DNA of 44,461 nt from an uncultured Bacteroides sp. (GTDB lineage: Bacteria > Bacteroidota > Bacteroidia > Bacteroidales > Bacteroidaceae). How positions within the stretch are numbered: position 1 is the stretch's first letter; each line of letters opens with the position of its first letter. The position numbers and the translations under genes are program-made. A model generated the notes under the pieces. The model saw only the letters and a program-made list of their open reading frames with translations, was not told where the DNA came from and did not search any database. The DNA lies in contig CAUHML010000023.1 in assembly GCA_959606905.1 (NCBI GenBank), positions 1 to 44,461 of the forward strand, read 5' to 3'. This document shows, piece after piece, positions 16,325-44,461 of this stretch.

Positions 16325-17314
16325 ATGCGTTACTCTGTCATAATCCCCGTTTACAATCGTCCCGATGAAGTGGATGAACTATTACAAAGTCTCACGGCAC
16401 AGTACTTTAAAGATTTTGAAGTTGTTGTAGTGGAAGACGGTTCTTCCATTCCCTGCAAAGAAGTAACAGACCGCTATATTGACCGGTTGAATATCAAATA
16501 TTTCTCTAAGCCAAATTCAGGACCGGGGCAAACACGTAACTACGGAGCGGAACGCAGCGAGGGTGAATACCTTATTATACTGGATTCTGATGTGATTCTC
16601 CCCGAGAGATATTTCGATGCCATCGAGGCGGAACTTCTCGCTTCTCCTGCCGATGCTTTCGGAGGTCCCGACCGCGCACACGATTCCTTTACGGATATCC
16701 AGAAAGCGATTAATTATTCCATGACTTCTTTTTTCACAACGGGAGGTATTCGTGGCGGAAAAAAGAAAATGGATAAATTCTATCCCCGTAGTTTCAATAT
16801 GGGGGTACGTCGGACGGTGTATGAAACCTTGGGAGGATTCTCAAAGATGCGTTTCGGCGAGGATATTGATTTCAGCATCCGTATTTTTAAAGGTGGTTAT
16901 ACCTGTCGGCTTTTTCCGGATGCCTGGGTATATCACAAGCGCCGGACAGACTTGAAGAAATTCTTCAAACAAGTGCACAACTCCGGTATTGCCCGTATCA
17001 ATCTTTACAAGAAGTACCCTGATTCGTTGAAACTGGTGCATCTGCTTCCGGCGGTCTTTACATTAGGAGTAGCTGTTTTATTATTGGGGACACCGTTTTG
17101 TCTGTTTAGTTTCACGCCTATTCTTCTTTATGCACTGTTGGTCTGTATAGACTCGACGATTCAAAATAAGAGTTTAAGTATCGGAATATATTCCATTGCT
17201 GCCGCATTTATTCAGCTTATAGGCTATGGTACAGGTTTCTGGCGTGCATGGTGGCAACGTTGCATCAGAGGAAAAGATGAGTTTGAAGCATTTCAAAAGA
17301 ACTTTTATAAGTAA
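16325..17314 (+). CDS. Family 2 glycosyltransferase with C-terminal membrane helices
   Basis: A 329-residue GT2 (GT-A fold) glycosyltransferase. The N-terminal domain has YSVIIPVYNRPDEVDELLQSL, VVVEDGSS (nucleotide-sugar binding) and the metal-binding motif LDSDVILP, then a GGFSKMRFGEDIDFSIRIF acceptor/catalytic region with an ED-type pair. Residues about 236-300 contain two or three hydrophobic helices, so it should be anchored on the inner membrane and act at the cytoplasmic face. Donor and acceptor are unknown; cell-envelope glycan or glycolipid is likely. It stands alone between the ackA terminator and the 22-base repeat array, which begins 73 bases after its stop codon and so could lie in its 3' untranslated region. 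Confidence 0.88.
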   Translation: MRYSVIIPVYNRPDEVDELLQSLTAQYFKDFEVVVVEDGSSIPCKEVTDRYIDRLNIKYFSKPNSGPGQTRNYGAERSEGEYLIILDSDVILPERYFDAIEAELLASPADAFGGPDRAHDSFTDIQKAINYSMTSFFTTGGIRGGKKKMDKFYPRSFNMGVRRTVYETLGGFSKMRFGEDIDFSIRIFKGGYTCRLFPDAWVYHKRRTDLKKFFKQVHNSGIARINLYKKYPDSLKLVHLLPAVFTLGVAVLLLGTPFCLFSFTPILLYALLVCIDSTIQNKSLSIGIYSIAAAFIQLIGYGTGFWRAWWQRCIRGKDEFEAFQKNFYK

Positions 17315-17387
17315 ACTCGTATGATTCTGAATTGTGTCTTCACGGTTATGAACTAGGATACTTATATGACTATAAATTAATACGGCA

Positions 17388-17560
17388 AAACCAATAGTTT
17401 CATGCATTGGAACCTTTGGTTTCGCCGTAGAGAAACTATAGTTTCACCGGTGGGAAACTTTAGTTTCATCATGGAGAAACTTTAGTTTCAGACGCTTGAA
17501 ACTAAAGTTCCCAAGGCTTGAAACTTTCAGTTTCCTATAGGGAAATACCACCGGTATTTT
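17388..17560. repeat. Tandem array of 14-base palindromes at an exact 22-base period
   Basis: Palindromic units begin at 17388, 17410, 17432, 17454, 17476, 17498 and 17520, each exactly 22 bases after the last. The consensus is GAAACTWWAGTTTC; units 3, 4 and 5 are perfect palindromes (GAAACTATAGTTTC, then GAAACTTTAGTTTC twice apart from the central bases), the outer ones carry changes. An eighth position at 17542 keeps the spacing but has a different hairpin, AAATACC-ACC-GGTATTT. The spacers between units are 8 bases and all different (atgcattg, gccgtaga, accggtgg, atcatgga, agacgctt, caaggctt; the last is 7). This fills most of the 314-base gap between the glycosyltransferase gene and radC. 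The function is unknown: binding sites on one DNA face or a chain of RNA hairpins are both possible. Confidence 0.85.
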
Positions 17561-17628: not shown

Positions 17629-18324
17629 ATGGAAAACAAACACAAGTTATCTATCAACCAATGGGCACCGGAGGATCGTCCGCGGGAGAAAATGATAGAG
17701 AAGGGAGCAGCCGCATTGAGTGACGCCGAACTACTCGCTATATTAATAGGCTCCGGGAATACGGAAGAAAGCGCTGTCGAACTGATGCGACGCCTGCTTT
17801 TGTCCTGTGATAATAACCTGAATGCTTTGGCGAAGTGGGAAGTGTGCGACTATTCCCGTTTTAAAGGAATGGGACCGGCAAAGAGCATTACGGTTATGGC
17901 CGCCCTTGAATTAGGCAAGCGGCGGAAATTGCAAAACATCAGAGAGAGACTTCGGATCACCTGCTCGAAAGATATCTACGAGATTTTTCAACCACTAATG
18001 TGCGACTTGGCGCAAGAAGAGTTCTGGGTACTGTTGTTGAATCAGGCAACGAAACTGATTGATAAGATACGTATCAGTTCCGGCGGTATAGACGGTACTT
18101 ATGCCGATGTGCGTTCCATTCTTCGGGAAGCATTGATGCAAAGGGCTACACAAATAGCTGTGGTGCACAATCACCCTTCCGGAAATATTCAGCCTAGCCA
18201 GCCTGACAGGACATTGACGGAACATATCCGTAAAGCGGCGGATACGATGAATATTCGCCTGATAGACCATGTCATAGTCTGTGAGGACGGCTTTTACAGC
18301 TTTGCAGATGAAGGGCTGCTCTGA
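17629..18324 (+). CDS. radC: RadC/MPN-domain protein (DUF2466)
   Basis: A 231-residue full-length RadC family protein. It has the N-terminal UPF0758 helix-hairpin-helix region (EKMIEKGAAALSDAELLAILIGSG, FKGMGPAKSITVMAALELGKR) and a JAB/MPN metal-binding domain with the motif VVHNHPSGNIQPSQPD (His-x-His-x6-Asp type) and LIDHVIVCEDGFYSFADEGLL at the end. Its historical link to DNA repair is doubtful; it is probably a metal-dependent hydrolase or nuclease-like protein with an unclear role. A weak promoter-like TACCTTTA lies at 17602-17609. The 22-base repeat array ends about 70 bases upstream, so regulation of this gene by the array is possible. Confidence 0.95.
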   Translation: MENKHKLSINQWAPEDRPREKMIEKGAAALSDAELLAILIGSGNTEESAVELMRRLLLSCDNNLNALAKWEVCDYSRFKGMGPAKSITVMAALELGKRRKLQNIRERLRITCSKDIYEIFQPLMCDLAQEEFWVLLLNQATKLIDKIRISSGGIDGTYADVRSILREALMQRATQIAVVHNHPSGNIQPSQPDRTLTEHIRKAADTMNIRLIDHVIVCEDGFYSFADEGLL

Positions 18325-44409: not shown

Positions 44410-44461
44410 GCGGAAATAGCTCAGTTGGTAGAGCATAACCTTGCCAAGGTTAGGGTCGCGA
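44410..44461 (+). tRNA. tRNA-Gly (anticodon GCC), cut by the window end
   Basis: The first 52 bases of a tRNA are present. The D arm (GCTC...GAGC) and an anticodon stem TAACC/GGTTA around loop TTGCCAA are clear, with GCC at 44443-44445, reading glycine codons GGC and GGU. The T arm and acceptor 3' end lie outside the window. It follows its own promoter. Confidence 0.93.

Follow-up and report, generated by a model that had tools for sequence, protein, structure and literature searches.

Extragenic palindromes that are dispersed through chromosomes and grouped in mosaic arrays are known as REP/BIME sequences, which are moved by RAYT. In Porphyromonas gingivalis, dispersed tandem repeats have been described as BrickBuilt, a MITE with a 23-nt repeat lacking spacers, 19 copies in one genome and ends of a GAGACC type that resemble IS elements of the same species (PMC4596501, excerpted text). 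Plasmid iteron origins, as covered in the excerpted text of PMC4980987, hold two to seven repeats, commonly of 17-22 bp and of 22 bp in R6K and pPS10. Cooperative binding of the Rep protein, whose winged helices contact the DNA, is sensitive to helical phasing. On the protein side, BT4734 is assigned to the primase superfamily in the excerpted text of PMC5862659, where VirE/VapE ATPases are predicted to be mobile-element helicases acting in replication.

Here we describe a palindrome array in a window of 44,461 nucleotides, the whole stretch of DNA analyzed, from an uncultured Bacteroides sp. Judged by comparison, its nearest described counterpart in kind is BrickBuilt, and its nearest counterpart in layout is the plasmid iteron. 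Arrays of this family are dispersed extragenic palindromes like REP/BIME, but their unit is shorter and the Y1 transposase (PF01797) is missing in four of five carriers (none in G001, G002, G010 or G022, one in G013), and an assignment to REP/BIME with RAYT was rejected. Nor do the arrays have the layout of a CRISPR, the spacers being about 8 bp rather than tens of bases and many of them recurring between arrays. The likeness to BrickBuilt lies in a tandem repeat that is dispersed, intergenic and about two helical turns long, in the leader and tail with inverted ends, and in the variable repeat number (PMC4596501, excerpted text). Unlike BrickBuilt, the units here consist of a palindrome plus a spacer, the element ends differ from the GAGACC type, and the unit-to-unit step was 22 in 491 of 559 cases (127 distinct arrays of at least three units, taken from the retrieved loci), which places the arrays outside BrickBuilt. 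The BrickBuilt text contains no word beginning with 'palindrom-', and its excerpted parts contain no link to VapE.

The array lies between a glycosyltransferase gene and radC:

16325..17314, + strand, flanking glycosyltransferase family 2 gene (Pfam PF00535)
17380..17534, unstranded, block 96.1% identical over 155 bp to the paralogous array L152 (in G001, inverted)
17388..17534, unstranded, array of seven palindromic units at 22-bp steps, units of 14 bp (the last 15 bp) and spacers of about 8 bp
17542..17560, unstranded, eighth hairpin, in the same 22-base register as the seven units
17629..18324, + strand, flanking radC gene (Pfam PF04002)

At its far end (44410-44461), the window holds the start of a tRNA gene that is cut by the window end (Rfam match).

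The preliminary description of this DNA had reported at least seven palindromes at 22-base steps, and seven are confirmed. Unit starts fall at 17388, 17410, 17432, 17454, 17476, 17498 and 17520, each step being 22. Allowing up to two mismatches, GAAACTNNAGTTTC matches ten times in the whole window, five of them inside the array, against an expectation of 2.54 +/- 1.47, and none of 100 shuffles reaches ten. Tandem Repeats Finder returns the array with a score of 92 and a period of 22. Its lag-22 self-similarity of 0.716 is the maximum when lags 12-40 are compared over the whole window, the next lag reaching 0.50 and the next lag-22 place 0.43. The consensus proposed for the units holds in part: GAAACTNNAGTTTC is exact in three of them (17432, 17454 and 17476), and the others are changed, with two mismatches at 17410, one at 17498, a looser match at 17388 and a 15-mer at 17520, unlike the 14-bp others. 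Two further claims were borne out, namely that the spacers all differ from one another and that the hairpin at 17542 keeps the register. The stretch 17388-17560 recurs letter for letter in G001, the nearest of the genomes compared, which shares 84% of the window's sampled 31-letter words. We found no Rfam match at the array at gathering thresholds, no leader or tail module near it with nhmmer module profiles, and no VapE match in the window.

Arrays of the same family are dispersed. A two-unit pattern with at most one mismatch has matches in 6 of 61 relatives, all of the same genus (35 forward matches in G001, 26 in G010, 17 in G013, 16 in G002, 14 in G022 and one in G035), and its reversed control gives zero in every relative. 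At up to three mismatches there are 54 matches in G001, and the best 50 of these 54 form 19 clusters; G001 thus holds at least 19 clusters of the family. Among the matches listed, a longer pattern occurs in records of Bacteroides, Porphyromonas, Parabacteroides, Phocaeicola and Prevotella, and in single Prevotellaceae and Treponema bins. The preliminary description had held that the repeat would probably be a local accident if no other genome carried such arrays; they occur in these relatives and in further genera. Mobile replicons gave little: one distant match among phages in INPHARED, no match to a three-unit pattern in viral_contigs, and weak matches in 9 and 10 plasmid records, from Bacteroides and Parabacteroides.

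Placement is almost entirely intergenic (93 of 96 placeable arrays, with three overlapping an open frame; the other 31 of the 127 lie too near a sequence end to be placed), and the intergenic arrays stand between tandem (58), divergent (18) and convergent (17) neighbors. The 19 G001 clusters show no spacing bias (variance P 0.69) and no half-chromosome or replichore bias (15 of 19 in a half circle, P 0.17), and the genes flanking them look unrelated by eye. Many dispersed intergenic copies without a transposase of their own are thus found, as in a MITE; the window copy lacks the terminal inverted repeats of one.

The radC site appears to have a history of its own. The closest paralogue, L152, lies elsewhere in G001 and adjoins a conserved leader-type element end. 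At the orthologous radC site, G010 and G013 carry arrays with a period of 22 and other unit sequences; lag 22 ranks first in G010 (0.67) and G013 (0.59) and 15th in G069. By eye, the flank with the 17542 hairpin aligns to the last unit of the resident arrays in G010 and G013, so this hairpin probably belongs to an older array resident at radC. Most simply, recombination with a paralogue probably brought the present units into this older array, which they replaced in register.

Elsewhere, the arrays are found in elements that contain a gene of about 700 codons with a BT4734-like N-terminal domain (PF08800), a VapE-like domain (PF05272) and DUF3874 (PF12990). Such VapE genes occur at L046/L071, L062, L149 and, in part, L123 (Pfam was applied to L046, L149 and the L123 piece; L071 and L062 were assigned by tblastn likeness), and the array lies 126-237 bp upstream of the VapE start. 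Among 29 lags, lag 22 ranked first upstream of 25 of 28 VapE genes, downstream of one of 28 and inside none of 28 (650 bp upstream; 30 of 50 carrier matches retrieved, less the fragments L268 and L276). Among upstream regions of non-carriers used as controls, 2 of 122 had lag 22 first and at 0.5 or more; an earlier control set that included carrier loci gave 11 of 182. In six non-carrier species of the genus, lag 22 was first at 6 of 20 hand-picked VapE genes, lag 23 at two, and neither at 12. Most arrays upstream of VapE genes lack the GAAAC unit, and groups have a unit of their own, for example CACGTACGTG or CACTNNAGTG. Some sit between divergent HU-HIG and VapE genes, and arrays upstream of BT4734/VapE genes are seen across clades, HU-HIG modules included. 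The association of 22-bp arrays with VapE genes is well supported. Upstream of VapE in G004, L289 and L291 have a best lag of 23 (0.52), the length of the BrickBuilt repeat.

The match between protein and array type is not strict. L251 and L252 encode a VapE 84% identical to that of L249, yet have a different repeat with a best lag of 21, and the sister proteins of L267 and L270 have differing array types. That close VapE proteins can carry different arrays makes strict protein-site matching doubtful; VapE may recognize arrays loosely, or their reader may be a different protein.

The protein combines a primase-like fold without DxD, an AAA+ domain and a winged-helix-like C-terminus. The ATPase motifs are retained. 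All 28 array-labelled proteins lack the primase DxD motif, a loss that weakens the term 'replication origin' in its strict sense. Since the AAA+ part of the structure model has low confidence, only the N- and C-terminal domains are interpreted structurally. The layout of an iteron origin, with repeats of 17-22 bp adjoining a gene, is seen in the relatives, and VapE is predicted to be the replication protein; in contrast to the iteron origins covered in the excerpted text of PMC4980987, the units here are palindromic, many copies stand without a rep gene, and the primase domain is degenerate. The protein families are those of the BT4734-like primases and VirE/VapE ATPases, with the catalytic DxD lost here, and in the excerpted text of PMC5862659 cis-acting arrays and orphan copies do not appear and 'iteron' has no occurrence. 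With 2100 homologues at E<=0.001 among 7998 candidates scored, BT4734/VapE is a large family. In the open-licence literature we found no paper joining BT4734/VapE genes with 22-bp arrays and none stating a role of BT4734/VapE in Bacteroides chromosomes.

Were the arrays part of VapE elements, the unit types seen upstream of VapE genes would be expected to turn up as scattered copies chiefly in the genomes that supplied them; each type tested was taken from the VapE upstream regions of genomes later showing scattered copies. The GAAAC type is present in G001, G002, G010, G013 and G022 and not in G004. CACTNNAGTG has 12 forward matches in G001, 13 in G010, 14 in G013, 19 in G022 and none in G002 or G004; the four genomes with copies are those with that VapE type, the absence of CACT-type VapE being based on 7 of 12 matches in G002 and 8 of 9 hits in G004. 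CACGTNNGTG has five forward and eight reverse matches in G002, distributed over two VapE sites and three further ones, with one stray each in G010 and G013 and none in three genomes. The CTCA..TGAG type has 17 forward and 16 reverse matches in G004, where they fall at three VapE sites and at ten further sites, and none in the five other genomes. All four types are therefore scattered in genomes with the matching VapE and nearly absent from the others tested. At 12 distinct VapE-free loci of these types, lag 22 ranks first and no 100-codon frame covers the array. The flanks match modules beside VapE or HU-HIG genes at eight of the 12; among the remaining four, L315 has no flank match, and the likeness of L320-L322 to VapE loci is confined to the array. 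Two loci in G001, L308 and L312, share a stretch of about 1.2 kb at 98% identity; it contains a CACTNNAGTG-type array and, on the left, lacks any frame of 100 codons. The same array recurs in a third place.

Two flank modules recur in Bacteroides: a leader marked by CTGTCAYCTGTCAC and GTGACAGCA boxes, and a tail marked by CCTATCACC boxes. Module profiles match at 9 of 19 G001 arrays (E<=1e-3), five of the nine loci having been among the training copies. Inverted end modules of about 100-140 bp bracket several gene-plus-array units. Of 10 VapE loci tested, nine have inverted ends of at least 99 bp, and in six of the nine these enclose both VapE and array. At three CACTNNAGTG-type loci they enclose an HU-HIG gene (PF18291 in L258 and L264, by likeness in L261) and the array, with VapE outside. 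At ten orphan loci of other array types, self-comparison found no inverted ends, and several of these have flanks that match sister copies in inverted order. DUF6078 genes lie directly beside VapE/array elements at L046:2083-2517, L158:4110-4544, L256, L257, L260 and L262 (PF19555 confirmed for L158, the rest assigned from sequence likeness), and in several cases their last codons overlap the leader-type end. A phage-integrase-family gene (PF00589) at L046:616-1662 lies near the VapE element, outside its leader-type end; none was noticed beside the other elements read, a minority of whose neighbors were Pfam-scanned.

Downstream of queC, an array-bearing insertion is present in each of the five array-rich carriers, and the six non-carrier loci read have no array. 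Four of these six have little or no spacer (segments of 36, 29, 11 and 0 bp, lengths that include 15 bases of flanking genes); the other two have segments of 297 and 325 bp. In G019 (L230) this site carries direct repeats, several tens of bases long (GGTTCAACACGGAGAACACAGAG...), with no apparent relation to the 22-bp arrays. VapE proteins with 84-90% identity to the L249 protein belong to elements that occupy three different surroundings across four species: L249 and L250 have both flanks in common, and L251 and L252 none. The loci L256, L257 and L260 have a DUF6078-bearing flank in common, and this on just one side. Eleven elements read by eye, whose exact ends are uncertain, showed no clear target-site duplication.

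Array and gene do not always occur together. In G035, a GAAAC array lies in a 3-kb locus without VapE. GAAACT arrays occur without a PF08800 hit in two Porphyromonas uenonis genomes, P. somerae and Prevotella jejuni, and the VapE-domain loci of P. uenonis and Prevotella jejuni have no 22-bp array (L283 being partly masked). Phocaeicola coprophilus has an array and two PF08800 genes, neither at a locus with a 22-bp array. The P. uenonis arrays lie in other leader/tail elements; loci such as L031, L058, L100 and L125 hold very many GAAACT arrays in a conserved leader and tail of their own, and some of these adjoin genes for leucine-rich-repeat surface proteins. The largest recurrent group of genes near Porphyromonas arrays encodes leucine-rich-repeat surface proteins, which we took to be a coincidental rather than a functional partner.

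On balance, and with modest conviction, we favor the reading that these are iteron-like recognition arrays of selfish VapE elements, with binding and movement as predicted properties; the window array, lacking element ends, is in our judgment rather probably an orphan copy of such an array. A cooperative protein-binding array, one option raised in the preliminary description, fits best among those named there and now has a candidate protein, the binding itself being predicted. Another of its options, an integration or recombination scaffold, is addressed only indirectly, by the arrays that are found in elements with inverted ends. In this likely mechanism, each 22-bp unit would be a binding site for the element's own DNA-binding machinery and, as 22 bp makes two helical turns, all units would face one side of the helix. 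The most likely binder would be the VapE protein itself, joined in some cases by the neighboring HU-HIG protein. The bound array would start copying or movement of the element, control the VapE promoter, or both, and orphan arrays would be non-autonomous or decayed derivatives.

The inverted ends, the intergenic placement (93/96), the expanded number of units in L160 and the P. uenonis arrays in leader/tail elements without PF08800 would also suit a MITE-like element with an internal minisatellite, moved by a transposase that recognizes the inverted ends, with VapE and HU-HIG as passengers and the array amplified by slippage and recombination. Passengers hardly fit the 22-bp arrays found upstream of VapE across clades, Y1 is missing in four of five carriers, and no transposase was noticed among the listed open frames, some of them Pfam-scanned; we regard this account as unlikely, if worth keeping in mind. 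The arrays could instead be host regulatory or chromosome-organizing sites bound by HU-HIG/VapE modules, their mobile look being due to old duplications. Arrays between divergent HU-HIG and VapE genes and the several orthologous loci that retain arrays across species while units turn over are consistent with this, but the G001 clusters lack spacing or replichore bias, the flanking genes look unrelated by eye, the species distribution is patchy and array types vary between species, and we judge host sites quite improbable.

A chain of RNA hairpins at the 3' end of the glycosyltransferase gene, serving as terminator, mRNA stabilizer or processing signal, would predict paired changes in the half-sites. 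Splitting the arrays by genus (46 Bacteroides and 75 Porphyromonas arrays of the 127, other genera excluded), we found compensated changes in Bacteroides in 3 of 246 cases within units and 10 of 136 (0.074) across spacers, both within the largest of 500 shuffles. In Porphyromonas, across-spacer covariation (24 of 108, 0.222) exceeds all shuffles (maximum 0.10). The pooled across-spacer signal of all genera (34 of 265) is driven by Porphyromonas. The earlier proposal that base changes preserve palindromic cores through selection for structure thus finds no support in Bacteroides, and its RNA hairpin chain finds pairing across spacers in Porphyromonas but none beyond shuffles in Bacteroides. The window array has a fold z of -9.3, which is uninformative since any palindrome array would fold strongly. 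With arrays between tandem, divergent and convergent genes alike and no Rfam match at the window array at gathering thresholds, an RNA function here seems very unlikely. A local chance repeat is contradicted by the shuffle excess in the window and by the 35 forward G001 matches at up to one mismatch against zero for the reversed control, which leaves it a negligible probability.

Going beyond the iteron-like reading, the elements might form a class that is possibly new: bounded by inverted repeats and transposase-free, driven by a dead-primase/AAA+/winged-helix protein with, at times, an HU-HIG partner, which would work through an array type of its own made of palindromes at a 22-bp period, spreading non-autonomous copies and replacing array types rapidly between species. 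We offer this fuller picture tentatively and consider it rather doubtful in its entirety. For BT4734/VapE, a large and little-studied protein family of gut bacteria, the arrays provide candidate DNA target sites. If they are the targets of VapE, then binding to DNA, mobility and regulation could all be tested directly, and a cause would be at hand for many intergenic repeats now lacking one. The fast change of array types between related proteins would, if true, exemplify in bacteria how a protein and its dispersed sites can turn over rapidly.
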